DNA of 64,000 nt. It comes from Mesostigma viride (lineage: Eukaryota > Streptophyta > Mesostigmatophyceae > Mesostigmatales > Mesostigmataceae). Below the pieces are notes generated by a model. That model searched no databases. It was given only the letters and a program-made list of their open reading frames with translations, and was not told the origin of the DNA. The position numbers and the translations under genes were made by a program. The stretch covers positions 1,345,969 to 1,409,968 of the forward strand of contig RPFO01000003.1 in the NCBI GenBank assembly GCA_009746045.1, read 5' to 3'. How positions within the stretch are numbered: the first letter of the stretch is position 1; every line of letters starts with the position of its first letter. This document shows positions 9,111 through 51,271 of the stretch, in pieces.

Positions 9111-9757
9111 GTCTCTTCACGCCGCGCAAGCGGCTCGAGAAGACTCTCTTCACCCTTGATGACGACTTGACCCTGGCGCAGCAACAACGGCGACGGGAGC
9201 TATGGCCGACCTACCTCCAGCTCCGGCAGACCAAGGCGGCCGGGGCAGCCGGTCATGTACTGGAACTTAGGGGGCGGCCATCTACGTCGGCCACAAGCCC
9301 TGGCAGGCGACCCCCCCCGCGGCCCCAACGACTCCAGACGCCCCAGCTTAGGGGAATACAGCAGTAGTGTTAATAGATAGACCGTGGCCATGTACATGTA
9401 CGCCTCCTAGAGGCACTATCCCAGCTAAGCCACGCGCTTTATTTAATCATGTACATGTGTGCCTATGATGTCAAGCCACCCTCCAGATGATGCCTAGCTT
9501 TATTTAGTAATTATGTTGTGCCCATGCAGGGAGTTACTCTCTGCTGAGACGCCATGCCCTAGCTTTTTGTATAGCTATGCTGATCTTCCCCCCCATGACA
9601 GGCTCCCCCTTCGCTGGGCATAGCTTGAAGATCATGGGGATGCAAGTGCCCTGGTGCACCTAGAGCGCAAGGGTCCTTTACATTCCCACCCTTGCAGGAA
9701 GTAGCTTAGAATGTATGATAGGCCATATGCCCCTTCCCTGGGCTATGTGCTACATAC
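9111..9757 (+). mobile_element. ORF1 3' end plus LINE-II 3' UTR
   Basis: Starts inside ORF1 (KRLEKTLF-like segment, LDDDLTLAQQQ, ELWPTYLQLRQ) and runs into the UTR that follows ORF1 at 14510-14275 (minus) and 19560-20165 (plus). No ORF2 lies between. It ends at 9757, just before the terminal hairpin, where another element begins. Confidence 0.7.
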
Positions 9758-10190: not shown

Positions 10191-10597
10191 CCCTCGCGGC
10201 CTCGCGGTACAATAGGCTTTGGGCACAGCCTTTATAAACAAGCCCCTTTCCATCCTCATGTCGCACCGTGCGAGCATGATCAGGATGCAAGGTCGCCAGG
10301 CACGCCACGGTCAACCTTCCCGCCAATTTACCAGCCTTACACGCCTCCTAGCCCGCCTTGAGCGGGATGAGGCCCAGTCGACACGCCGGCGACCCCAGCC
10401 AGGACGGAGACGACGCATATCCGTCCTGAAAGAAAGCCTCCATGCGTTGACAAGCATTAACCCCAATCGCCACCCTCCCCCTCCCCCCCCCCCCACCCCC
10501 ACCCCCACCTCCAGCACTACCCTTCTCCACCCCCACCCCCACCCCCACCCCCCCGCTAATAGGGCAACGGCCCATTCTTGGTATTGCAAGTTTTAAC

Positions 10598-13500
10598 GTG
10601 CGCACCCTCCCTGCAGATCCTTCTACGAGCGGCGGCACCCCAGCACGCCAACGCGTCGACGAGCTGATCGCCCTGTGCGCCGACAACAAGATCGCTGTTC
10701 TTGGAGTCCAGGAGCACCGACGCACCGTTGACCCTCAGCACGCGGTCAACGGTCTGCTGGTCGACGACCTGCGTGCAGGCTGGCGGTTCCACTATGGTGG
10801 CGGCGACGCGCCGGGCCAAGGTGGTGTGGGCCTCTTGTGCTCGCCGGCAGCATCAGAGCAGCTCCAGTCCATCGTGCTGCGGTCCCCGCGTGTGCTAGTG
10901 GCCACTTTTTCGGCCACTGAGGGCCATTCACACCACACGCTAACCGTTATCGTGGGATATGCACCACATGCGGGTCGAGCTCAGGCGGAACGTGAGGCCT
11001 TCTTCGACGCCCTCAAGGAGGAGGAGGCCAACATCCCAGCTCGGCACTTCCTGGTTATGCTGCTCGACGCCAACGCCACGCTGCCAGTTGGCACTGGGGG
11101 CGCTCAGTATTCCCCAACCAACACGACAGCCAACGGTAACACGCCTTTATTTGCGAATCTGCTGGCAGAATCTGCGCTGGTTGCATGCAATGCTTCTTTC
11201 GCACGCCCCGCTGAGCAGCTGGCCACCTTTTTTGGGCCGTCGGATCGGGTGGTGTGCCTTGATTATGTCTGCGTACGTCGGGCTCAGCGCCCCTCAGTTG
11301 TCGATGCTCGCGTCCTGCAAGATTCTGTCAGCACGGTGGAATCTGATCATCGTCTCGTGCTCGCTCGCATCAGATTGCGGTTTCCTGGGGTGAAACCGTC
11401 GCGACAGCTGGCACCTCAGCCAGATCTGAAAGTGCTCCGGATTGTGCTGAAGGATGCCGACAAGATGTCAGCAGCAGAGCAGGCCGCTATGTCGCACAGG
11501 GATGATTTCCTGGCCGTATTCGACGCCGGGGGCAGCCGACAGCAGTTACACGCCATTCCGCCGCCGGGGGATATTTCAGTGATCCTCCGTGGTGTCGCCG
11601 CCAAGTATCGCCTGGCTGCCCGCACCCTCCCCACCTTGCCTCCGCGTCGGCAGCTTGCTGTCCACCGTCACGCACCGACAGTGGTCGCCGCCAGGCAGAT
11701 GCTCCGCCGCAACAGAGATCCGATCGCCAAACCTGGGCTGCAAGCAGCTCTGAGGGCCGCCTACGAGCAGGCTGAGAAGGCAGATGCTCAGCAGATGGTC
11801 AAGGACCTGCGCAGCTGCCAGCAGAAGCACGACGGCAAGGGGGCCTGGTTCTGGTACAAGCGCCTCGGGCACCCGGACGGCCTCGGCCGGCCCCACCGCC
11901 ACGACGTCCCCGGCGCCCCAGCCAAGCGGCTTCGTACCTGGGCCACGGCCACGGCCGAGGTCGTGGGGACAGCTGCGCCGCCCCCACCCCTGCTCCCAGC
12001 CGCCGCCGCCCGCCCGGCCGCCCTGGCCGGCCCCGCAGGGCCCCCGGCCCCGCCTAGGTCAGCGGCGGACTACCTAGTCCCCCCGCTGGTCGGCCCACTT
12101 GGCGACCCGTCTGACATGCCTCCTTTCACCTCTCGCGAGGTCACGGAGGCGGTCCAGCGCCTGCGTTATGACGCAGCCACCGGCTCTGACGAGATTCCGG
12201 CCGCAGTTGTAAAACTTGCAGCCGAATTCGAGGACACAGGTGTTATGCTGCTCTTCCGGGACATCTGCAACCGCCTTCTGCTGTCGTCGCAACCACCTCC
12301 AGCGGCCTGGCAACACAGTTTTCGCACGATGCTGTACAAGAACAAGGGGTCGCCTGCCGACCCCGGCAACTACAGAGGGGTGTGCATTCAAAGTGCCCCC
12401 CTCAAGCTTCTTATGCGGCTCATCCTGAACCGCCTGCGCACGGCCCTGGACGGTCACCTCAGCGAGACTCAGCACGGCTTCCGTTCAGGTCGCAACACAG
12501 TACAGGCGCTCTTCGCTACTCGCCGACTGGTGGAGGAACTGCAACGCCTTCAGCCTGGTGAGTCCCCTTTGCACCTTGTGCTGGTGGACTTCATCAAAGC
12601 CTTCGATTCGGTTTTCTGGCCTGCGCTTTGGGACATCCTCGAGTTGTTCCGGATCCCCCGCCCCCTGATTGCTGTCATCCGCAACCTGTATGAAGGGTCC
12701 ACCACTTCGGTGCGCACTTCTTACGGGACCACGCCCCCATGCCCTTTACAGAAGGGTGTGTGGCAGGGCTGCGTGCTGTCGCCCTACCTGTTCATTATTG
12801 TTGTCGAATACGTAATGATTCAGGCGCGCAAGCGATTTGCCCGCATCGTGGGCAGGGAACCAGGAGTGCAGGTTGCTAACAAATTCTGGCATGGCGGTGC
12901 GGACACGGAGATTCGGCTAGCAGACATCATTTACGCAGACGACACCACCCTCTTCGAGGACACTGAGCACGTGCAGACATGGCTTGACTGCCTGGCTCTC
13001 GAGGCCCGTGCAGTGGGGCTTGAGGTCAGCAAGAAGACAGAGGCCCTGGCGGTTGGGCTCACCACCTCAGCGCCGCCCCTCTATCTCCTAGACGGCTCTC
13101 GAGTCCTGTATCGGGACCGCGTTAAGCTGCTGGGCAGCCTGCTCCCTAGCTGCGAGGTGATGTGGACCACCGCATCTCCCTCGCCTGGCACGCTTTACGC
13201 CAGTACCGGGCCCTGTGGCGCAAGCCCCTGGGCAAGATCGAGAAACAGGACCTGTTCAAGGTCCTCGTCCTTCCTGTTCTCACGTATGGCGCCGAGACGT
13301 GGACCCTCACCGCCGACCTGGCCCGCAAGCTGGACGGCGCGGTCACCAGCATGCTGCGTTCCATTTTCAGAGTAGGATATGCTGCTCATGTCCGCAATGA
13401 GGACCTGTACCAGGGCATGCCCTATATCACCAGCACAATTAAGCAACGCCGCCTGCAGCTAGTAGGGCACCTAGCTCGCACCAACCAGGTAGACACCTCA

Positions 13501-25556: not shown

Positions 25557-33665
<8,109 letters not shown>

Positions 33666-39100: not shown

Positions 39101-39214
39101 CTATTTCTTGGTTCCAGCTGAGCATTCCTCTCTGTGTCATTCATCGGCATTGGCAAGTTTGCTGCTGCCGGCTTGCTGGTTATGCCTAGGATATAAGGGT
39201 GCAACCCCCTGCAC

Positions 39215-40015
39215 GTGCGTGTTTCTCAGACCAAGCCCACGGCAACGTGGCTCTCAGGGATCGCGGCAGGTGCTATCGTGCGGGATGGTTATAATTATAT
39301 TATCACGAAGGCTGACCTTGTTCATTGGATCTCTTATCTTGTTGATAACACCTTCATTTGTTTTGCGGGCAATGTATACCAACAAGCTATCGGCATCCCT
39401 ATGGGCACTAACTGTGCCGGGCTCCTTGCAAACCTCTATCTATACACTTATGAGCTTGCATTCATGGAGAATCTCATTGCCTCAAACGATGATGTTCTCA
39501 TCAGGCGTTTTATCCATACATGTCGATACATTGATGATGTCATCGCTTTCGACAACCCTGATTTCGCAACCCATTTGTATATCACCGCTGGTCTGCCTGG
39601 CATCTACCCGCAAGCGTCCCTCACATTACAGCTCACGTTGGAGGATACTCATTGCAATTACCTCGATCTTAACATTACCCATAACAAGAAGGGCTGGCGT
39701 ACGGCTGTCTATGATAAGCGCAAGGATCCTAAATACCAGCAAATTCCTTTTATTCGTTACCCCGATATTCACAGTCTCCTTTCCCACACAGCAAAATATG
39801 GTGTTGTTCTTTCTCAGTTACATCGTTTTTCCCGTCTTTGTTCTTATCGTGTTGATTTCATCACGACTCTTGTTGAACTCTTGCAGCGTTTATTGGTCAA
39901 AGACTATGACCGAGACATTATGCTCCGTCAAGTCCGATGTTGCACCCACATCTGTTCGGTGCTGCCCCTTGGCACAAGCTCTACAAACAGGTCGTGGACC
40001 GGCTGGATCGCATAG
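39215..40015 (+). pseudogene. fragment of an unusual reverse transcriptase (GIPMGTNCA ... YIDDVI type)
   Basis: The 266-codon frame contains GIPMGTNCAGLLANLYLYTYE-like palm motifs (near 39390), the catalytic CRYIDDVIAF (near 39525) and a C-terminal KYGVVLSQLHRFSRLCS segment. These look like a widely scattered RT family that I associate loosely with Penelope-like or similar elements; the clade is uncertain. The C-terminal part continues in another frame (about 39945-40020, HPHLFGAAPWHKLYKQVVDR), so the copy is frameshifted. The N-terminal part is missing. Confidence 0.65.
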
Positions 40016-40429: not shown

Positions 40430-40600
40430 AAGCCAGCCATAATTTCAATGCACAAGGATACACATTTCCATCACCATTCATCTTCATCATCTCGAACGAC
40501 TCGAACACGCGGACAAGATAACGGCAGGCTCGAGCTACCATGGTCCGGATTCTCCCGATTTCTGGCCTGCGCTGGTTGTCTCCTTGATAAGGGTACCTGA
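40430..40600 (-). mobile_element. interspersed repeat with GCGCTGGTTGTCTCCTTGAT end
   Basis: Inverted relative to 16770-16850 and 32280-32380. The retrotransposon to its right inserted next to its end. Confidence 0.5.
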
Positions 40601-40743
40601 TGTCGCGTCTGCGTGCCACAATCTCCGGCGCCACCATGGCGGCTGGCCTCTCAGCTTAATTTGGTAAAACCCAAATGAGCTGAGCTGATGTGCCTGCCTT
40701 AACTGCATGCCCTGTGGGGTGGGCGAGGACCTGTCCCATGATT
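40601..40743 (-). repeat. B2: terminal copy of the 143-bp split repeat
   Basis: One mismatch by eye to B1 at 41881-42023. It contains an imperfect hairpin with arms CTCAGCTTAATTTGG and CCAAATGAGCTGAG. It forms one true end of the element (TGTCGCG on the plus strand). Confidence 0.88.
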
Positions 40744-41878
40744 AAAGAAAGGAGGGCTCTCAGCCGAGGACAAGGAACTGTCCCTCGTGCCTGATAACCA
40801 CCTTATTGCCTCCCCTGCTATAGAATAATGCTTTCAAACACACACTTTGCACAGTCTGATGATGAAGCCGCACATGCGGAATTTATTGAGAAAGTTAATA
40901 CAATTACAACACGTTGATAGTCTCAATATCGATGCACTCCATGCTCACGAGCCCGCAGTTAGGCAGCGCTCCATGACATGCTACCGGCCTTGCTCCCAAG
41001 GAAAGGGAGAAACACGAAGGCCACTAACGAGAGACTCGAAGAGACTACACGCTGCGTGAGAGTCCTCTTCGACTATGAACCAAACCATTCGTCATGCCAC
41101 ACGCATGACACACGCCACACTTGTCAGTCCAGCCAGGAATGCCAAAACTATCTTGCTGCCTGAACCATGCGAATAGAAACCGCATTCCAGTTGCCGTCCT
41201 GGCTTTCTACCACACATGCCAACAAAAGCAGGAAGGCATCCCGACAAATCTAAATTGCTACCCTGTTGCCGATCTCATCTCCTAGAGGCTCCGGCATTTC
41301 TGTCCCTGGGAATGTCCGACATTGAGTCACGTCCAGCAAGGTCGAAGCATAATATCCTTCAGACAATCTGCACGCTCACACCTTGCGTGTGAGTGGCCCA
41401 GCAAACATTGCGTCTAATCGTTCCTTTCTAGAAGAAATCCCTTTTTAGGGCTGCCAGCGATTTCGCATTCATTCCAGCGATCTGGCTCCGCACCGCAAAT
41501 TGTCCTTTTCCATTTTCTGTCCAGTCCTCATAACGTTGACCCGCTATTCTACACCACAAAGACACCTGGCCTGTCAATAGCCTCGGCGCTGTTGAAGTCC
41601 AGCAGTCCAGCTTCAGCTCCAGCTGTCCACTAACACGCGTATGATCCTCTCGACGCTGCACACTTGTGCTGCCGTCCGCTCAAGTCAGTGCTGCGCGCCC
41701 AGCTGTGCCTGGCCCGGCGCGCGTGCACGTACACTTTCGTCCGCTCTTATGCTGCAAGTGCTAGTGTCCCCCCCGGTCACTAGCCTTTGTCGAAAATGCG
41801 TAGAAGACAAATTCCTTGCGCACGTCACCGGTCTTGTGCATAGTGGGCGCCCGGATGACATAGCGCGCGTCCGTGACA
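40743..41878 (-). repeat. L repeat, 3' copy (1136 bp)
   Basis: About 99% identical by eye to 50130-51267. Non-coding. Begins on the minus strand with TGTCACGGACGC and ends with CCTTTCTTTA. Confidence 0.93.
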
Positions 41879-41880
41879 GC

Positions 41881-42023
41881 TGTCGCGTCTGCGTGCCACA
41901 ATCTCCGGCGCCACCATGGCGGCTGGCCACTCAGCTTAATTTGGTAAAACCCAAATGAGCTGAGCTGATGTGCCTGCCTTAACTGCATGCCCTGTGGGGT
42001 GGGCGAGGACCTGTCCCATGATT
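41881..42023 (-). repeat. B1: internal copy of the 143-bp split repeat
   Basis: Separated from the L repeat by GC, so the junction reads GTGACA-GC-TGTCGC on the plus strand, a near-perfect palindrome made of the two element ends. The polypurine tract abuts its other side. Confidence 0.88.
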
Positions 42024-42032
42024 CCCCCCCTC
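42024..42032 (-). promoter_or_regulatory. polypurine tract (plus-strand primer)
   Basis: GAGGGGGGG on the minus strand, ending exactly where B1 begins. In LTR elements this primes second-strand synthesis at the start of U3, so B1 behaves as the first part of the LTR. Confidence 0.75.
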
Positions 42033-42049
42033 GCTGGCGACCGGCCCCA

Positions 42050-45000
42050 TCACGAAGACAGCGATCGTACCAAGACAAGGGCAGCGGTGACCGCAGTCAA
42101 GCTGCGGGAGGTAAACTGCGCAGCGGTGCACACTGGACAAAACCAATCCCCCTCCGGAATGCTGGTGACCACGGGCTGCAAGCACTGCATGTGCCAACCA
42201 CAGTTACACTGATCACACAATAACATGGACTCCGCCTGATCGACCCGGTGACAAACCTGACACTGGGCGTCCTTGACTCGGCGAGATGTGTGCGGTTGGA
42301 GGTCGTGGACCAAATTGGGCAGTGAGCAGGGACTGAGATTGCTGAGGTTGTCTGTCGTACGGCTCCCGTCGGCGCCCTCCAAAATTGCCACTCCCGATGG
42401 TTTGATAGCCACAATGCGCAAAATGGTGGGCCCCGCCTCCACATCCAAAGTGTGCTTCAGCTGAGTGCGCAGGAAAACATACTGCCCTGGCCTAAACCGC
42501 AGCTGGCGAGCCATGTATGCGCCCCCCCGGCGCTGAGCGTAACGCAGGGAGTCCCTGTGCTGAGCAATGAACAAGTTGTTCATCGCGATGGGCATGACCT
42601 TCTTAAAAGTCTCTGCCCTGGCCAGCACCTCAACCAAAAATTGCTGAGCGTTGTCGAAGGCCATGGGTTCGGGGTGCGCAACCTGTGCCTCCGTAGGCAA
42701 AAGAGGATTACGCCCGAACAGAAGGAAATACGGGGAGAAGGTAGCGAGAGACTCCTGGGGAGACATGCGATAACCCATGGCAATCCATGCCAACTCGCGA
42801 TCCCACCTGGCCGACTCCGGCACCTGCAGGCTCCACTTGCGCAGCGCCTGCTTGACGGTCTGCACCAATCTCTCAGCCAAACCATTGGCCTGAGGATGCT
42901 CCCGAGAAGTGCGACGGTGATCAATAAGACATCCATCCAGCAACTCCTGGAACTCACCCCTGAACTCACCACCCTGGTCCGTGACTACCTCCGCGGGAGC
43001 CCCAAACCTGGTGATGATGTCTGCAAAATGCTTCGCTGTGGTAGCGGCATGCTTGTCAGCAATGGGGATCAACTCAACCCATTTGCTAAAGCTCTCCACG
43101 CATACCATGACATAGAGGTTGCCGTCAGGGCTCTCCTGAAACGGCCCGCACAGATCGACGTGCCAGCGATAAAACAAGCCCTTGATGGGAAGCGACATCA
43201 GCTCCTTGGCACCATGATCTGCGCTAAAGTTAGCCTTGGTTCGAGCACACGGGACACAGCTGGCCACTACCTGGGCCACTGTGTGTCGCATGTTATTCCA
43301 CCAATAGCTGGTCCGTACGAGGCTGAGCGTGCGATTGCCACCCAAGTGACCATACCGCTCGTGGTACGCCTGCACTATAGCAACGCGCTTGTCAGGCGGT
43401 GGGACGACCACCCTACGCTTGCCCAACAGCTTGTACAAAACCCCATCTTCCCAACCATAGGTTGCAGCCCTGTGCTGCACCCTGTTCAACTCCGTCGCCT
43501 TCTGAGCAGGAGTCCAATCGACTGGAGTAGGAGTCAAGACAGCACCCTGCACTTGCTCCAAAACTCGACCATCTAGCCAGATATCAGCGGTGTAGCAATC
43601 AGCAAGAGAGCTACGCGCTAAGAGAGCCTGCACAGCGATCAGCTGCTGCAGAGAAGGATCAATGTCAAAGGACAGAGACCTACCCTCTTCCATAGCGCAC
43701 ACAGCTTTGGATGGCGTGAATGGCGACGGCCGCACCGGGTCGTCGCTGATGCCGAAGTCCGCCACAGAGTACTCGACACTGCGCCACCACGCCTCCTCCT
43801 CATCGTCGGCCGCATACCCAGCAGCGTTCACAAAGACCACAGAACCCGACGAGCCCTCGGCACCCATGGCCCGGGCTCCAGTGTGGTCAACAGTGGTAGG
43901 CATGGCGTATCGGGATAGCACATCGGCGTTGACATGGTCCTTGCCGGCCCGATGCACAATGGTCATGTGGTACTCCTGGATAATCATGGCCCATCGGGCG
44001 AGCTTACCCGTCAGGTTGGTGTTGGTCATTAGCCACTGAAGCGGCTGGTGGTCTGTCACCAGAGTAAACACGCGCCCAACTAAATACGGGCGAAAGTGCT
44101 TGATGGCCCACACCACAGCCAGTGCCTCCCCCTCATAGGAAGAATACCGGCTCTCCGCTGGGTTGTTGCTGCGACTAGCATAAGCAATAACGTGCTCGCG
44201 CCCATCACCATCCTTTTGCGCCAAGACCGCACCCAGTCCTACCTTGGACCAGTCGGTATATAACACAAACGGCAAAGCATAGTCAGGGGCGCGCAGAATC
44301 GGGGCCGACGTGAGCTCCTGCTTGATTGTCTCGATGGCGCGTTGCTGTGCGGGACCCCACGCCCACACGCACCCCTTCTTGAGTAACTCGGTCAAGGGCT
44401 TCACCTTGCTGCTGAAGTTCTCAATGTAACCTCGGTAATAGCCAGCCAAACCCAAATACGCCCGCACCCCTGAGACATCCGTGGGTACGGCGGCCTGCAC
44501 AATGGATTCGACCTTGGCGGCATCAGGCGTCCGGCCACCCGGCACAATCTGATGACCAAGGAATGAGAGGGTCCGCTGGGCGAACTTGCACTTCTCAGGG
44601 TGCAGCCGCATATTATGCTCCTCGAGAGCCAAGCGAACCTGCTCCAAGTGCGCCAGGTGCTCCTCAAATGTCGCGCTAAAGACGATTACATCATCAATGT
44701 AACAAGCGGCGAAAGGAAGACCTGCAAGCACTTTGTCCATAGCTCGTTGGAAAACAGCACTAGCGTTGCGGTGCCCAAAGGGCATGCGCACCCACTCATA
44801 CAAATTGCCGCCCCCCCAGAATGCAAGCTTCCGCTGATCCTCCGGCGCAACTGCGATCTGATGAAAGCCGCTACGCAGGTCCAGCGAGGACACAAACTTC
44901 ACATGAGGAGATATCTTATCCAGGACATCATCCACACGTGGCATGGGGTAACGGTCCACGGGTGTGTGTGCATTCAGCAACCGCAGATCGGTGGCCATGC

Positions 45001-45169
45001 GCATACCCGTCCATGCCCCGGTGATAGCGTCCTTCTTGGGCGCAACGACAACGGCAGCGGCATAGCTGGAGGAAGATTGCCTGATGATACCGGCATCCTC
45101 TAACTCCTTGCATTGCTCGGCTACAAAATCCAACTCGGCCTGACTCAGGCGATGCTGGCGTCGGAACAA
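42050..45169 (-). CDS. pol: pol: reverse transcriptase, RNase H, integrase and C-terminal PHD finger
   Basis: 1039 codons, with residues counted from the listed start. RT 1-240: SLDLRSGFHQI (94-104) and YIDD (157-160). RNase H about 300-420, D306 and D373 visible. Integrase: H2C2 zinc site H603/H608/C638/C641 and catalytic D672, D731, E766. C-terminal PHD finger in the canonical Cys4-His-Cys3 pattern (C970, C973, C985, C988, H993, C996, C1011, C1014). Family knowledge: PHD fingers read histone H3 tails; some gypsy integrases carry a chromodomain at this place to steer insertion. Inference: the PHD finger targets integration to chromatin with a given H3K4 state. The frame starts inside the previous one (25-nt overlap), offset by minus one. 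Every catalytic motif seen is intact. Confidence 0.93.
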   Translation of the reverse strand: MFRRQHRLSQAELDFVAEQCKELEDAGIIRQSSSSYAAAVVVAPKKDAITGAWTGMRMATDLRLLNAHTPVDRYPMPRVDDVLDKISPHVKFVSSLDLRSGFHQIAVAPEDQRKLAFWGGGNLYEWVRMPFGHRNASAVFQRAMDKVLAGLPFAACYIDDVIVFSATFEEHLAHLEQVRLALEEHNMRLHPEKCKFAQRTLSFLGHQIVPGGRTPDAAKVESIVQAAVPTDVSGVRAYLGLAGYYRGYIENFSSKVKPLTELLKKGCVWAWGPAQQRAIETIKQELTSAPILRAPDYALPFVLYTDWSKVGLGAVLAQKDGDGREHVIAYASRSNNPAESRYSSYEGEALAVVWAIKHFRPYLVGRVFTLVTDHQPLQWLMTNTNLTGKLARWAMIIQEYHMTIVHRAGKDHVNADVLSRYAMPTTVDHTGARAMGAEGSSGSVVFVNAAGYAADDEEEAWWRSVEYSVADFGISDDPVRPSPFTPSKAVCAMEEGRSLSFDIDPSLQQLIAVQALLARSSLADCYTADIWLDGRVLEQVQGAVLTPTPVDWTPAQKATELNRVQHRAATYGWEDGVLYKLLGKRRVVVPPPDKRVAIVQAYHERYGHLGGNRTLSLVRTSYWWNNMRHTVAQVVASCVPCARTKANFSADHGAKELMSLPIKGLFYRWHVDLCGPFQESPDGNLYVMVCVESFSKWVELIPIADKHAATTAKHFADIITRFGAPAEVVTDQGGEFRGEFQELLDGCLIDHRRTSREHPQANGLAERLVQTVKQALRKWSLQVPESARWDRELAWIAMGYRMSPQESLATFSPYFLLFGRNPLLPTEAQVAHPEPMAFDNAQQFLVEVLARAETFKKVMPIAMNNLFIAQHRDSLRYAQRRGGAYMARQLRFRPGQYVFLRTQLKHTLDVEAGPTILRIVAIKPSGVAILEGADGSRTTDNLSNLSPCSLPNLVHDLQPHTSRRVKDAQCQVCHRVDQAESMLLCDQCNCGWHMQCLQPVVTSIPEGDWFCPVCTAAQFTSRSLTAVTAALVLVRSLSS

Positions 45170-48087
45170 AGGGTGTCAGTGTCCAATGGAACACGCATGG
45201 TCCCACCATTGAAACACCCCAGTTCATCACTTGTGAAAGCGAAGGCCCCCCTTGCAGTGCCTAGCCACTTTAGCATGGCTGAGCGCTGCGCATCAGAAAG
45301 GTGTTCGCCAATAGCCCAGGGGTGCGTATCCGCGGGATCACCCACAGCTACCGCATGTGCCTCAAGATGCGGCGCCCTAGCCGCATCGTCGTGGAACAAG
45401 GAAAAGGCTGCCACGCCTGGTGTGACACCCACCGCCGGAGCCTCGCGTGCCGCACGGTGTATTACCCGATGCAGCGTGGGCTCGCCGGCCAGCACGGTGC
45501 TGGTCAGCAGGGCGGTCATGAGAATGATAGTCCACACCTGTCGCAGACGCCACCCCCATGCTGATGAAGTCCCCGTCGCTGCAGGGCGCTTCAGTTTGGC
45601 TGCGCGCGCCTCAACCTGCTGAGGCGGATTGGCTGGGGACGCCCCCCCAGACTGGCGCACGGCAACCGATGCAAGCAGCACATACCCGACCTGCAACACC
45701 GACATAGCCTGGCCTATCAAAGACCAGCGCTCACTCTCGAGCACGCCCGGCAGCGCCGAGGCCCCGACATGAAAACCCATGCTGGCCTCACGAAATTCTG
45801 CGGGTGGCTGCACCAACAGACCGGTGGTAGTGTCCCAAACGAGACCCTTACCCCGATCACGGTATGCTGTCGACCCTTGGTAACTGACCAGGGTCGGCAG
45901 TGCACACATGGGGCTCCCGACCCGGTTGACGCGTGCATACGGTGGGCGATCCTCGCTATCCACCTTCTGCGTGACTAGGTGGGAAGGCAATGCTACCTCC
46001 GCAGACACACTCGGATGCTGCCTTGCTACGGCCCCCAAGACCGCCTGCACATCGGTCGCACACGCCACGTTGGTCCAATAGGCACGCAAACGATGCGTGA
46101 GCCCACCCAGCCCTGCGTTGTCACACACGATGGGCTCCCCCAGGAGTGCCACGATTGTAGCCCAGTCCTCCCGCACCGCCTGATGTGGGCTGTCACCCGC
46201 CACAACGTTCTCAAACAGATACGCAGGCGGATGGGGCTGACGCGACTGCAACAGTCCCACCACACGCAACAGTTCCCAGAACAGCGCGCTACGCGGATCG
46301 GCTAGCCCCCGCCCTTGCCCTGCCTGGCTCAGGCCCTGGCACTCCCAACCCGCAATTACCAAGTCGATGGCATGATGCCTGCGCAACAACTGCTGCACCT
46401 GCACCTCACCGATGGCTCGGATATCTTGAGGACATTCCCCAAACGGGTCACGCCATGCTGATGGCGGAAACTGCGCGGGATACTCTCGCGACAACACGCC
46501 ACAGTGACTGAAGTACACCTGACGCGCCTTGTGCGATGGCTCTACCGCGATGAGTTTACGGCACACGCCGCCTGCGGCCAAAAAGCCTGCAATGCCCCCT
46601 CCGATCCCCGCAAACAGTTCCAACACTACCGCACCCTTGGCAAAATCAGGGGCCTGCGGTAAGATTGCAGCAGAAAAATTACCTTGGGCCTCCGAGACAC
46701 CCGGTTGCAGCAAAGTGAGGCCATGGCTGGCCATCTGAGGAATGGTGATGACGGCTTCAGTTACCCGCTTGCGCATAGCCAGCTGCCGCGTGGACGTCAC
46801 AGCATCCAGCGACCACTGCGTGCGCATCTTGGCAATGCTCGCCGTTGGCTGGGGCAGCACCGTCCGATGCTTGTCCCACGCCGATGAGCCCGCCGCCCGT
46901 ACCTCCACCATGCTGACCTCCACCACGCCCGCAGCCGCGGAAGGGTTGAGGCGTGCAGCCCCGGCTGAAGAACTGAAGCATGAGACCGGCACGCTGGCCC
47001 GCTTCAGGCCAGCCCCATCCCAATCAGGGATGTAAGATGCCTCCTCCGCCCTATAGTCCACCTGAACCATGGCGCGAGCAAGGACATCCACCCCGAGTAG
47101 TGCGGAATATCCACACTTGTTGACCACCAGCGCATACGCGGACACGGTGGTCATGCTAGAGGCGCGCAACGGATTGAAAATCACGTTGACTTTAACCGCC
47201 GTCATAGCGTACGGCTTACTAGCCGGACCCTGCCAACCTGACACAGACACGGGGCTTTCCACTAAGCCACCGTTCTCGTAGGTCAGGTTCAGCATGGTGG
47301 CCAAGTCCGTGCTGATGACTAGCGGCTGAGCACCGCTATCAAGCTTGACTGCGCCAACCAACGGACATGTCACCATGTCGCTCCATACATCTCCACAGGC
47401 TCCAACTGCTTGGAACGCCATGGACGGCTCACCATTGGGGTATGGAACCACCGTGGGAACCTGGGGGACTGCACTAGTGCGCTGCTGGCTACTTGTGCTG
47501 ACCACTCCCGCTTGCACCACGGGCACTGCGGCTTCTACCGGCTGGCGCCCGTAGGTGACGGACTCAGAATTGCGCAAGGTGCGCACATCATGCCCATCTG
47601 CGAACAACTGGATCTCGGACACAACCGACCCCAGCCACTCAACCCCCTTCTGCCCGAAGGTGTCGACCACCTGCCGTGCTGAAAACATGGGTACGTCCAC
47701 AATGAACGGCATTGGGTACACAGGCGCCAATCGCCTACGCTGCTCCAGCCCAGCAGGGTTCGCATGCTCAAAAGCAGATTGCACCCCAGCCAGCGGCATG
47801 GAAAAGGACGCGGGCAACTGCCCGGCAGGCAACATGGGTGCCTGCTGAAAAGAAAGCGGGCTGCGTGCCTGCTTGCCTTTGGTAGCCTCCGCAGCGTTGA
47901 TCTCGACGTCACCCGGCATGGGCGCCCAGAATGGGTCCTCCCGGTACACCGTCTCGAATTGGTTGGGGGGCGCCGTCGCCTCCTCACCATGCTTGATGGC
48001 AGCCACCTGGGCTTCCATCGAGTCGGTCTTGCCCGCCATCTCGGCGAAGTGGACCGTCTTGATGCCCGCGGCTGGACACTTGTTCAT
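45145..48087 (-). CDS. aspartic protease and C5 cytosine DNA methyltransferase (pol N-terminal part)
   Basis: 980 codons from the first ATG, but the frame is open further upstream and includes a CCHC zinc knuckle at 48177-48136. A retropepsin site KLDSGA (D250) is followed by LLGVDVL. The methyltransferase spans about residues 487-800 (46630-45690): motif I ELFAGIGGG (490-498), motif IV with catalytic Cys583 in GWECQGLS (the usual PPCQ has become WECQ), motif VI FENV (625-628), motif VIII THRLRAYW, motif IX FREASMGF and motif X GQAMSV (792-797). The target-recognition region is short. A hydrophobic segment (about 851-868) follows. Known: retrotransposon DNMTs of charophytes and dinoflagellates can methylate CG de novo. 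Inference: this enzyme marks element cDNA or nearby host DNA. Confidence 0.92.
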   Translation of the reverse strand: MNKCPAAGIKTVHFAEMAGKTDSMEAQVAAIKHGEEATAPPNQFETVYREDPFWAPMPGDVEINAAEATKGKQARSPLSFQQAPMLPAGQLPASFSMPLAGVQSAFEHANPAGLEQRRRLAPVYPMPFIVDVPMFSARQVVDTFGQKGVEWLGSVVSEIQLFADGHDVRTLRNSESVTYGRQPVEAAVPVVQAGVVSTSSQQRTSAVPQVPTVVPYPNGEPSMAFQAVGACGDVWSDMVTCPLVGAVKLDSGAQPLVISTDLATMLNLTYENGGLVESPVSVSGWQGPASKPYAMTAVKVNVIFNPLRASSMTTVSAYALVVNKCGYSALLGVDVLARAMVQVDYRAEEASYIPDWDGAGLKRASVPVSCFSSSAGAARLNPSAAAGVVEVSMVEVRAAGSSAWDKHRTVLPQPTASIAKMRTQWSLDAVTSTRQLAMRKRVTEAVITIPQMASHGLTLLQPGVSEAQGNFSAAILPQAPDFAKGAVVLELFAGIGGGIAGFLAAGGVCRKLIAVEPSHKARQVYFSHCGVLSREYPAQFPPSAWRDPFGECPQDIRAIGEVQVQQLLRRHHAIDLVIAGWECQGLSQAGQGRGLADPRSALFWELLRVVGLLQSRQPHPPAYLFENVVAGDSPHQAVREDWATIVALLGEPIVCDNAGLGGLTHRLRAYWTNVACATDVQAVLGAVARQHPSVSAEVALPSHLVTQKVDSEDRPPYARVNRVGSPMCALPTLVSYQGSTAYRDRGKGLVWDTTTGLLVQPPAEFREASMGFHVGASALPGVLESERWSLIGQAMSVLQVGYVLLASVAVRQSGGASPANPPQQVEARAAKLKRPAATGTSSAWGWRLRQVWTIILMTALLTSTVLAGEPTLHRVIHRAAREAPAVGVTPGVAAFSLFHDDAARAPHLEAHAVAVGDPADTHPWAIGEHLSDAQRSAMLKWLGTARGAFAFTSDELGCFNGGTMRVPLDTDTLCSDASIA

Positions 48088-49922
48088 CAGGTGCCACTTC
48101 GTGTCTGCCCCATGCGGCTTCGTGCAGCGGCTTGGACACTCGCGACTAAGGTGCCCATCCTTGTCGCAAAGGAAGCAGCCCGATTTGCGCGCATCCGTCC
48201 TAGTACCCGTCTGTGAGGACGTGCCCCCCCAGCTCGCGTCGGGGCGGCAGCGTCTTTGTTGCCGCCAGCGGCGTTACCCTGGGTTGCATCATGCGATGAG
48301 GCGTTGCGAGACCCCCCTTGGTTCCTGCTAGCACCGTGGCCGCCTTGCGGGCGCGCTTGTCTTGTGGCAGACGACTCACCCGACTTGGCCTTGGTCAGCG
48401 CGTCGACCTTGGCCTGCAGCTCGGCCACCACCGTGCTTACCGAGATCCGGCCTTGCGCGTGTCGTCGCATCATGGCCCTGACCTCAATGCACAGTGACCG
48501 CAATCGCCACGGCTGGCCGTTGGGCGGCGTGGGCAGCTCCATCTCCTTGGAGCCTAGCGCTTGCAGCCATTTCTGACACGCCAGCTTTTCGGACCAGTCC
48601 TCCACTTCGCCGGCGAACTCCATGAGGCGCTCGTAAGATTGCTCCGGGGTTTCACCCTCGGCTATCTTGAAACTGCGCCACTCACGCTCTGCCTTGATGG
48701 TCTCCACCGGGTATTCCTGGCGAAGGAGGCCCCACAGTTCCTCGGCAGGGTCGACACCATACATGATGTTGTCATAGTCGGGCTGGCCACGCCCGTCGAA
48801 GCCGAACCACACGTCCGTGTGACGCGTGTACAGCGAGACCTCTCTCCACTGCTCCACCAGCCTAGCCACTCGCCTCAGCGTAAGGCCGTGAAAGAAAAAA
48901 TGCATGTTGTTCATCACAAACTCATGCATTACAGCGCCTTGCGTAGTCATGTATTGCAGATCAATCCATGACTTGTACGCGTTGTAGGCCTGCGCCAGCG
49001 TGGCCAGATTGCCGGTTGTGGAGAACTTCTCGCGCATGTCCACCCGTGGTAGGGTGGGCATCTTCGCGCCTTCCGGTATGAGGCGCACCCTTTGCGGGTA
49101 CTGCACCCCATCGGCATCCTCCGGCGGTCGCTGAGCTGCGCGTCCCTGCGCCAGCGTGCTTGGTCGTGCTGCCTCCCGTACTCGGAAAGCCAGCGGCGTG
49201 GTTATGTCCTCCATGGGCGGAATGCGCCCGATTGGCACACTTGACCACCGTGCAGTCGACCCGCCGGTCAGCGCCCCACCGCCTCGCCCAAACGGAATTG
49301 AGGCCCCGCCTGGCAGCATGCGTCCTGGTGCACCCCTGTGTGGGTCCATCGCGCGCGCCAGCCCTGCCCCGTTCTCCTCGTGCAATCCGTCTCGCGCTTG
49401 ATCGAAAGGCAGGCGCCTGGGCGCCAGCGTATACTCGCCCCGTGGCTGACCATCCGCCTCACCAAGCAAGTCGTGTTGGGTTAGCGACCCAGCCAAAACC
49501 CCCGGTTCCATCGAAGCCCTTCCCGCCGCATTACCTGAGGTTGGCGGCTGGTCCCGCTCCCTCGGCTCCGCGGCAACACCACTGGGGCCCGGCATCGATG
49601 CCTGCCCGTCCCATGGTGTGGACTGCAGATGACGACCCTCTACGGCCACCAATCTGTCGGTCACTTCCCGCATCTGCAGCGCCAATTGCTGCTGCAACTG
49701 TTGCGACTGTTGCTGCATCTGCGCTTGCATCTGCGCGAACAGCGCCACCATACTCAGCGGCGCTTCTTGGTCGCGACTCTCACCCACTGCGGGTACGGCG
49801 GGAGGAATTCCGCCATTCGACCCCGGAGCGGACGTGTTGGCATCTGCTCTATTTGCATCCGCCATGGCTCGAGTCTGCGCTCGCGTCAGTGGCATGCACC
49901 AGCTGACCGATGGGCAAAACAA
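48087..49922 (-). CDS. gag: gag: capsid-type structural protein
   Basis: 611 codons; the real start may be the internal Met at 49865 (MADANRADANTS). A Gln-rich coiled coil (about 65-90) precedes a Ty3-type capsid region (LATLAQAYNAYKSWIDLQY ... WRSFKIAEGETPEQSYERLMEF). A Gly/Arg/Ser-rich region follows. The CCHC knuckle (C-x2-C-x4-H-x4-C) is in the next frame, reached by a minus-one step at a run of seven G (48230-48224 on the minus strand). The last 40 codons of this frame are therefore probably out of frame. Confidence 0.85.
   Translation of the reverse strand: MFCPSVSWCMPLTRAQTRAMADANRADANTSAPGSNGGIPPAVPAVGESRDQEAPLSMVALFAQMQAQMQQQSQQLQQQLALQMREVTDRLVAVEGRHLQSTPWDGQASMPGPSGVAAEPRERDQPPTSGNAAGRASMEPGVLAGSLTQHDLLGEADGQPRGEYTLAPRRLPFDQARDGLHEENGAGLARAMDPHRGAPGRMLPGGASIPFGRGGGALTGGSTARWSSVPIGRIPPMEDITTPLAFRVREAARPSTLAQGRAAQRPPEDADGVQYPQRVRLIPEGAKMPTLPRVDMREKFSTTGNLATLAQAYNAYKSWIDLQYMTTQGAVMHEFVMNNMHFFFHGLTLRRVARLVEQWREVSLYTRHTDVWFGFDGRGQPDYDNIMYGVDPAEELWGLLRQEYPVETIKAEREWRSFKIAEGETPEQSYERLMEFAGEVEDWSEKLACQKWLQALGSKEMELPTPPNGQPWRLRSLCIEVRAMMRRHAQGRISVSTVVAELQAKVDALTKAKSGESSATRQARPQGGHGASRNQGGSRNASSHDATQGNAAGGNKDAAAPTRAGGARPHRRVLGRMRANRAASFATRMGTLVASVQAAARSRMGQTRSGT
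48224..48230 (-). promoter_or_regulatory. candidate frameshift site between gag and protease/MTase
   Basis: GGGGGGG on the coding strand, zero-frame codons GGG-GGG-GCA. Stepping back one base gives the frame holding the zinc knuckle, protease and methyltransferase. A homopolymer length error in the assembly is an equal alternative. Confidence 0.5.
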
Positions 49923-50115
49923 GAACCAACAAGCCTAGGTTAGCCTGCCAGAAAAAGACAAGAGCCAGCAAATTCTGGCTAGTTCTATTTTCTTAAAATC
50001 TGTCTCAAGACACTTCCTTTACAAACTGTCAGCCAGGCCGTTCCCTGTACTGCTGATGGTTGATAAACACTAAAGCCAACGTCTTGGCTTCAAACAGAAG
50101 GAAGCAGACTACCGG

Positions 50116-50129
50116 GTAGTCTCTTCGAG
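50116..50129 (-). promoter_or_regulatory. primer-binding-site position, complementary to the element's own L repeat
   Basis: The first 14 bases after the 5' L repeat on the minus strand are CTCGAAGAGACTAC. The same 14 bases occur on the plus strand inside L (50423-50436 and 41035-41048), so the RNA can pair with itself exactly here. No match to a tRNA 3' end (TGG...) was seen. Confidence 0.65.
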
Positions 50130-51267
50130 TAAAGAAAGGAGGGCTCTCAGCCGAGGACAAGGAACTGTCCCTCGTGCCTGATAACCACCTTATTGCCTCC
50201 CCTGCTATAGAATAATGCTTTCAAAACACACAATTTGCACAGTCTGATGATGAAGCCGCACATGCGGAATTTATTGAGAAAGTTAATACAATTACAACAC
50301 GTTGATAGTCTCAATATCGATGCACTCCATGCTCACGAGCCCGCAGTTAGGCAGCGCTCCATGACATGCTACCGGCCTTGCTCCCAAGGAAAGGGAGAAA
50401 CACGAAGGCCACTAACGAGAGACTCGAAGAGACTACACGCTGCGTGAGAGTCCTCTTCGACTATGAACCAAACCATTCGTCATGCCACACGCATGACACA
50501 CGCCACACTTGTCAGTCCAGCCAGGAATGCCAAAACTATCTTGCTGCCTGAACCATGCAAATAGAAACCGCATTCCAGTTGCCGTCCTGGCTTTCTACCA
50601 CACATGCCAACAAAAGCAGGAAGGCATCCCGACAAATCTAAATTGCTACCCTGTTGCCGATCTCATCTCCTAGAGGCTCCGGCATTTCTGTCCCTGGGAA
50701 TGTCCGACATTGAGTCACGTCCAGCAAGGTCGAAGCATAATATCCTTCAGACAATCTGCACGCTCACACCTTGCGTGTGAGTGGCCCAGCAAACATTGCG
50801 TCTAATCGTTCCTTTCTAGAAGAAATCCCTTTTTAGGGCTGCCAGCGATTTCGCATTCATTCCAGCGATCTGGCTCCGCACCGCAAATTGTCCTTTTCCA
50901 TTTTCTGTCCAGTCCTCATAACGTTGACCCGCTATTCTACACCACAAAGACACCTGGCCTGTCAATAGCCTCGGCGCTGTTGAAGTCCAGCAGTCCAGCT
51001 TCAGCTCCAGCTGTCCACTAACACGCGTATGATCCTCTCGACGCTGCACACTTGTGCTGCCGTCCGCTCAAGTCAGTGCTGCGCGCCCAGCTGTGCCTGG
51101 CCCGGCGCGCGTGCACGTACACTTTCGTCCGCTCTTATGCTGCAAGTGCTAGTGTCCCCCCCCGGTCACTAACCTTTGTCGAAAATGCGTAGAAAACAAA
51201 TTCCTTGCGCACGTCACCGGTCTTGTGCATAGTGGGCGCCCGGATGACATAGCTCGCGTCCGTGACA
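50130..51267 (-). repeat. L repeat, 5' copy (1138 bp)
   Basis: Carries the 5' terminus of the element (TGTCACGG, minus strand). No copy of B lies between it and the flanking CTGA, unlike the other side. It should contain the promoter, not identifiable by eye. Confidence 0.93.
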
Positions 51268-51271
51268 CTGA

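Follow-up and report, generated by a model that had tools for sequence, protein, structure and literature searches.

Organization of the element

The stretch of Mesostigma viride DNA analysed here, a 64,000-nucleotide part of contig RPFO01000003.1 referred to as the window, contains an element whose genes lie on the minus strand. On the plus strand its parts follow the order CTGA–L1–B1–GC–L2–internal–B2–CTGA (40597–51271; Table 1), which in the coding sense reads B'-genes-L'-GC-B'-L' and equals the split-direct-repeat order A1-ORFs-B1-A2-B2. A preliminary description of the locus had proposed this arrangement, which is confirmed. The two copies of L are identical at 142 of 143 positions and the two copies of B at 1130 of 1137 aligned columns. 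The joint between B1 and L2, GTGACA.GC.TGTCGC (41873–41886), holds the perfect palindrome GACAGCTGTC, and the DNA fold at this junction is ordinary (z -0.5). The same description had placed the polypurine tract beside B1, which proved to be a misplacement: B1 begins with the purine run AAAGAAAGGAGGG, which recurs in B2 and is part of the repeat, and the tract (42034 to 42024, the coding strand being minus) adjoins L2.

Table 1. Coordinates of the element, its repeats, genes and predicted replication signals in the window
Feature	Position	Strand	Remark
Left target-site duplication CTGA	40597..40600	.	Identical to 51268-51271
L1, outer copy of the 143-bp repeat	40601..40743	-	Sense 3' end of element, ..GCGACA
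Predicted cDNA LTR, sense L'.GC.B', 1280 bp	40744..42023	-	PPT and PBS (at B2) as bounds; borders to within one base
B1, inner copy of the ~1137-bp repeat (1135 bp)	40744..41878	-	
Palindrome GACA.GC.TGTC joining B1 and L2	41875..41884	.	Two abutted integrase-type ends, 2-bp spacer
L2, inner copy of L (143 bp)	41881..42023	-	Start of predicted U3
Polypurine tract (PPT), sense GCGAGGGGGGG	42024..42034	-	Adjoins L2
ORF3: RT, RNase H, H2C2, integrase core, PHD finger	42050..45175	-	Pfam, motifs
ORF2: zinc knuckle, aspartyl protease, C5 DNA methylase domain	45145..48273	-	Pfam; zinc knuckle and protease matches both below the curated cut-off
ORF1, gag by position	48087..49934	-	No Pfam match
Predicted self-priming PBS, sense CTCGAAGAGACTAC	50116..50129	-	Beside B2; complement of sense strand 50436-50423
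B2, outer copy of B (1137 bp)	50131..51267	-	Sense 5' end of element, TGTCAC..
Predicted RNA 5' end / primer, sense GTAGTCTCTTCGAG	50423..50436	-	Inside B2
Right target-site duplication CTGA	51268..51271	.	

Measured from stop to stop, neighbouring reading frames overlap by 187 and 31 bases, each next frame being -1 by coordinates. The integrase core of ORF3 is formed by D674, D733 and E768, with 34 residues separating the second D from the E, where 35 are typical. Reverse transcriptase, RNase H and integrase follow one another in the order of Ty3/Gypsy elements, with a DDE core and an H2C2 motif. Judged from these predicted domains, this is a Ty3/Gypsy-like element that encodes a DDE integrase, a PHD finger and a cytosine-methyltransferase domain. 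In the latter domain, motif IV reads ECQG, the usual form being PCQ, and the ENV motif is kept.

A family with the same joints and target duplications

The B.GC.L junction occurs 633 times in the 440-Mb genome (haplotigs included, at most two mismatches), and the reversed pattern, used as a control, gave 0 matches. A genome search with window positions 40601–42100 returned 766 candidates, and all 40 that were scored match over positions 1–1500; these hold 43 matches, 40 of them full-length and the other three being partial pieces beside two of the full-length ones. An assembly error or a single event is ruled out by the 633 junctions and by the duplications found across copies. This also disposes of the assembly error at 40601–42030 that the preliminary description had named as a way in which it could be wrong. 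Taking into account that the same joint is found at hundreds of places, the layout looks like an evolved way of inserting and not an accident.

The copy survey suggested in that description was carried out on 52 copies examined for their ends (40 from the search and 12 from other subfamilies, distinguished by spacing and sequence), of which 38 were scored and 14 left out. An exact 4-bp duplication flanks the TGTCGC..GTGACA ends in 33 of the 38 scored copies, and when left and right ends of different copies were paired as a control, the 4 bp agreed in 16 of 1406 pairs. Without suspected haplotig duplicates, the count is 30/34. One of the five misses, C667, has a stray GTGACA without a B end, and its removal gives 33/37, or 30/33 when the suspected haplotig duplicates are also removed. 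In the other four (C2217, C488, C2111a and C998a), the B end is present and the flank unmatched; these may be recombinants or haplotig slips. Both ends could be scored in 11 of the 12 copies of other subfamilies, and each of these carries the duplication. The combination of a DDE integrase, a split layout and 4-bp duplications at TGTC...GACA ends, first noticed in the window, holds in two further subfamilies as well. In ten of the 14 copies left out, the right side yielded no GTGACA end; one of these ten, C1491, has an altered end, yet its flanks agree (TACC), and it is likely a haplotig of C229. The other four are C111, which is a tandem array, C1239 and C2111b, for which a left end was not detected, and C689, whose left end lay outside the fetched piece. 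At C1690, joining the flanks with a single 4-bp repeat leaves an uninterrupted frame of 118 codons that spans the site, which agrees with a clean insertion as far as the flanking sequence can tell; this is not an empty allele.

Target duplications of Ty3/Gypsy elements measure 4–6 bp, so that the short duplication found here is of their kind; PAT/Ngaro/DIRS elements are not known to make any. With the latter the window element has the split direct repeats in common, and it differs from them in its target duplications. Its repeat order equals the A1-ORFs-B1-A2-B2 order given for PAT/Ngaro split-direct-repeat elements in the relevant part of PMC4157794, which would favour placing it among them, but the elements described there carry a tyrosine recombinase, whereas this one has a D,D,E integrase core and 4-bp duplications. 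In the three ORFs, Pfam detected no tyrosine recombinase domain. Given these domains, the duplications and the 633 junctions, the idea of a tyrosine-recombinase element is rejected, and together with that of a one-off rearrangement or assembly error it retains next to no credibility.

A set of 20 junctions on larger contigs, drawn from the first 64 listed and not picked by likeness to the window, included 14 with a full L-B.GC.L. For the remaining six, L was not detected ahead of B. C446 and C224c (G000; L120, L118), which belong to these six, have an L-like, TGTCGCG-like end about 100 bp before B, followed by B.GC.L, and are perhaps a short non-autonomous derivative of this family. In C446, the PBS word stands directly before B.GC.L, with 54 bp of L, and this copy may be an ordinary LTR end or a short derivative. 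Another locus (L142, G000 C998:2216000-2218800) reads L-B.GC.L-B; an internal region was not detected there, and the start of B comes next in inverted orientation.

Predicted priming site, polypurine tract and cDNA LTR

The polypurine tract includes a run of seven G directly beside L2, and the join of L2 to the tract is identical in all 30 A-type copies read. At the other end of the internal region, the PBS shows strong complementarity to the RNA 5' end, itself predicted from sequence. All five copies read, namely the window copy, three of subfamily 2 and one of subfamily 3, retain the 13-nt PBS word that is the complement of the predicted RNA start; in the subfamily 2 copies (n=3) the bases right after it are unrelated to those of the window, and in the subfamily 3 copy (n=1) it is kept together with its surroundings. 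Of 20 left pieces, 18 contain the matching word in B. No match to the PBS 13-mer arose in 2000 shuffles of B, and none of 1115 other leader words, used as a control, has a copy in B, which rules out a chance PBS. The RNA fold pairs the predicted RNA start with the PBS (z -2.4).

Tf1 has ordinary LTRs, and it is in this respect that the self-primed Ty3/Gypsy elements Tf1/Tj1 differ from the window element, whose ends lie inside the LTR and whose RNA start is a prediction. The likeness consists of a PBS complementary to the start of the element's own RNA and of the order RT-RNaseH-integrase, as given in the account of Tf1/Tj1 in PMC4600332. Read against that account, the PBS complementarity appears to be the signature of Tf1-type self-priming (PMC4600332).

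The preliminary description had inferred an LTR composed of B1, GC and L, and the same unit is indeed bounded by the PPT and the self-priming PBS. This LTR has no TG..CA ends. The TGTC..GACA ends of the element meet inside it as GACA.GC.TGTC, and the TG..CA-ended LTRs next to PBS and PPT that mark Ty3/Gypsy elements are not found, the layout being split. Cutting after CA on both strands of GACA.GC.TGTC would give a 2-nt overhang like that of 3'-processed retroviral ends. By their sequence, the integrated copies can be described as a circular permutation of a cDNA with the LTR L'.GC.B', opened at GACA·GC·TGTC.

Evidence for and against a possible circular intermediate

The U5|U3 join, that is, the B1/L1 boundary, is exact in 29 of 30 A-type copies, and a few variants of it are present in other subfamilies. 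Two tandem arrays with a 9450-bp unit lie on C111 and C133. Their units are separated by one L.GC.B repeat each, which is the outcome expected when cDNA recombines with a resident copy. An ordinary LTR end, PBS-B.GC.L, occurs at 2 of the 51 listed PBS/B sites, both in these arrays. Copies with ordinary ends were one of the two findings that the preliminary description named as refuting its reading; C446 is a possible copy of this kind.

It has to be asked whether the joint requires a circle at all. Reverse transcriptase could pass U5 and jump end-to-end onto a second L, yielding a linear L.GC.B-internal-L.GC.B-L that the integrase trims at GC on both sides. Such a route, which accounts for the exact U5|U3 join and for the single orientation of the products, requires a regular jump in every cycle and is considered improbable.

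The opening of a two-LTR circle at the GC, as first proposed for this locus, fits the sequence; a symmetric circle, however, holds two identical palindromes, and opening at the second would yield the mirror product L-internal-B-GC-L-B. Among the places listed on contigs up to C1469 (100 of 633 B.GC.L, 51 of 193 PBS/B and 42 of 178 L/B), the mirror product is absent, with 0 of the 100 B.GC.L sites preceding a listed L/B join of the query pattern, the only kind that this count detects, against 31 of the 100 that are preceded by such a join in the observed order. Three listed L/B places (C1468, C1469), none near a same-strand junction, were left out of the count. A direct query for B.GC.L.B gave one instance among the 40 scored of 1274 candidates; in it, an L stands before the B, and the search for a PBS there was negative. 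A symmetric two-LTR circle that opens at random is thus disfavoured, and as the mirror product is not seen, either the opening of the circle is biased or the circle is formed in another way.

Circularization on an internal splint has been proposed earlier for PAT/Ngaro elements. Transferred to the window element, it would mean that a full-length RNA or cDNA with the outer ends is circularized on the internal L.GC.B, that only the new junction is cut, and that ends are inherited from outer repeat to outer repeat. The uniform L/B join and the lack of the mirror product among the 100 listed junctions speak in favour of such a process. It is opposed by the PBS, primer and PPT, which mark L'.GC.B' as a normal LTR, so that the part of the outer B2 lying upstream of where the RNA begins would be expected to be remade from B1. 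Further evidence on this alternative comes from the alleles of the repeats.

Alleles of the outer and inner repeats

L varies little among A-type copies, L1 and L2 being equal in 27 of 30. In the copies C224a and C887f, the outer L is common to both and unlike their inner L. For B, 21 copies were compared, picked by the likeness of their B1 to that of the window, with no weight given to a homopolymer column (7 or 8 C). In the U3 part, B2 differs from its own B1 in 13 of the 21 copies at single bases common to the B2 of other copies (sites 429, 703, 865, 1042, 1065 and 1124), and the two agree in the other 8. At the U5/R sites 101, 103 and 139, B1 and B2 agree in 18 of 21, and at U5 site 53 they disagree in four more copies, so that over the U5/R sites agreement is complete in 14/21 and disagreement is found in 7/21. 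A separate allele count at the end of B (353 sites) pooled inner and outer sites.

Outer alleles that are common across copies and absent from their own inner repeats, including those at U5 site 53 (4/21), are what inheritance from outer repeat to outer repeat on an internal splint would produce. The closer agreement of the U5/R sites (14/21 copies) than of the U3-part sites (8/21) points the other way, and the differences could be due to later gene conversion by cDNA or to assembly polishing deep in the repeat. The allele test is confounded, because the copies were chosen on B1 and polishing is possible. On balance, the splint is regarded as a less likely alternative, with a chance of perhaps one in four or slightly less. 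Old-type outer ends around newer interiors would also result if the integrated element were moved or copied as DNA by the integrase acting on the outer TGTC/GACA ends, with reverse transcription only updating the interior. Excision of integrated DNA by integrases of this family is not known, and this route is held to be very unlikely.

A proposed model for integration from a circle

The model that we consider best, with a probability of about 0.47, is that of a circle whose opening takes place at the palindrome closest to the circle junction. From the layout, ends, duplications and PBS, PPT and LTR borders, all read in the sequence itself, we infer the RNA start, the circle, the cutting site and the reason for the bias as follows. 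The element RNA would start inside B near 50436 and, folded back onto the PBS beside B2, serve as the primer for its own reverse transcription. The normal template jumps and the poly-G tract would then lead to a linear cDNA flanked by L'.GC.B' LTRs, the outer ends of these LTRs being distinct from the integrase ends. Precise joining of the cDNA ends (U5|U3, the B1/L1 join) would generate a two-LTR circle, in which the DDE integrase may recognise the abutted GACA.GC.TGTC inside the LTR and cut each strand after CA. The 3'-processed ends would carry a 2-nt 5' overhang, and the opened circle would be inserted with a 4-bp duplication. Of the two palindromes, the one at a distance of 143 bp from the circle junction would be used, a choice that probably reflects integrase remaining attached close to the cDNA ends. 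The resulting product, B'-internal-L'.GC.B'-L', would keep B on both flanks of the genes and could replicate.

Opening of a circle at this palindrome is supported by the split layout with 4-bp duplications (33/38, control 16/1406), by the PBS, the L.GC.B arrays, the U5|U3 join (29/30) and the equality of L1 and L2 (27/30), and by the restriction of ordinary LTR ends to 2 of the 51 listed PBS/B sites, both in arrays. A precedent exists in the integrases of foamy virus and HIV-1, which, according to the portions of PMC1180852 and PMC1905944 that deal with them, cut palindromic two-LTR junctions. Several observations weigh against the model. The ratio of 0 mirror products to 31 in the observed order among 100 listed junctions demands a strong cutting bias, and the uniformity of the U5|U3 join exceeds what end joining usually leaves. 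B2 and L1 often carry alleles common to other copies and absent from their inner partners, and these count against a fresh circle since a fresh cDNA circle would make the repeats identical. C446 is maybe an ordinary end, and L was not detected ahead of B in 6 of the 20 sampled junctions.

By the usual view, two-LTR circles are dead ends. The abutted-end reaction proposed here has an analogy in the circles of IS3-type insertion sequences, where the transposase works on abutted ends. The view of two-LTR circles as dead ends is disputed in the foamy-virus paper, in the part concerned with them (PMC1180852), and unintegrated HIV-1 circles have been reported as a source of later integration (PMC4372172). 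The likeness to foamy virus and HIV-1 lies in an integrase that cuts a palindrome of two abutted ends, an activity that for the window element is a proposal; the difference is that in these viruses the palindrome is the circle junction, as far as those portions of the papers describe it, whereas in the window element it lies inside each LTR and is inherited. No account of circle integration by a DDE-integrase retrotransposon was found among the listed titles and abstract openings of open-licence papers.

Taken in its wider sense, there is an even chance that the family represents a lineage of LTR retrotransposons that normally integrates from a DNA circle, with the integrase ends moved into the LTR as an inherited palindrome, a DDE integrase acting on abutted ends, and split repeats arising independently of tyrosine recombinases. 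The family has hundreds of such junctions, and its sampled full copies are of the permuted form. If the view is true, integration of circles by a DDE integrase could be tested in a natural, successful element, and it would suggest that split direct repeats follow from circular intermediates whatever the recombinase.

Relatives of the element

The split layout is not wholly new, DIRS-like repeats having been noted in 2018 for KnitGypsy-Dnmt3 of Klebsormidium nitens, where the legend to Fig. 4 describes repeats structured like those of a DIRS element together with Gypsy domains (de Mendoza 2018, PMC5890265). Both elements have Gypsy domains, a C5 methyltransferase in Pol and DIRS-like repeats, the K. 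nitens side being taken from the text and legend. The Discussion of that paper is silent on how KnitGypsy-Dnmt3 integrates, and the text and legend parts drawn on here describe no target duplications, PBS, palindromic junction or circle for it. The K. nitens protein P0033, perhaps encoded by KnitGypsy-Dnmt3, shares 43% identity with the pol query over 93% of the query and has a DNA_methylase domain.

Klebsormidium, Closterium, Calypogeia, Astrephomene and Tetrabaena are among the names represented in the pol matches. A tree was built from the window pol and 17 of the 120 listed matches; in it, 16 rows, those of the window and of these named sequences among them, stand apart from two outgroup rows (100/100), with no fixed place for the window element inside the 16, also relative to K. 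nitens. No relatives were found in viral contigs.

Other features in the window

An open frame of 272 amino acids at 39197–40015 (+) has a weak Pfam match to RVT_1 (E 0.075), and its motif resembles that of a Penelope-type reverse transcriptase, of which it may be a fragment. A LINE-type element contributes a 974-aa endonuclease-RT open frame at 10451–13375 (+), and repeated pieces occur near this frame at 9150, 14556, 19355 and 53413. Long simple-repeat arrays occupy 26562–27330 and 29560–29960.
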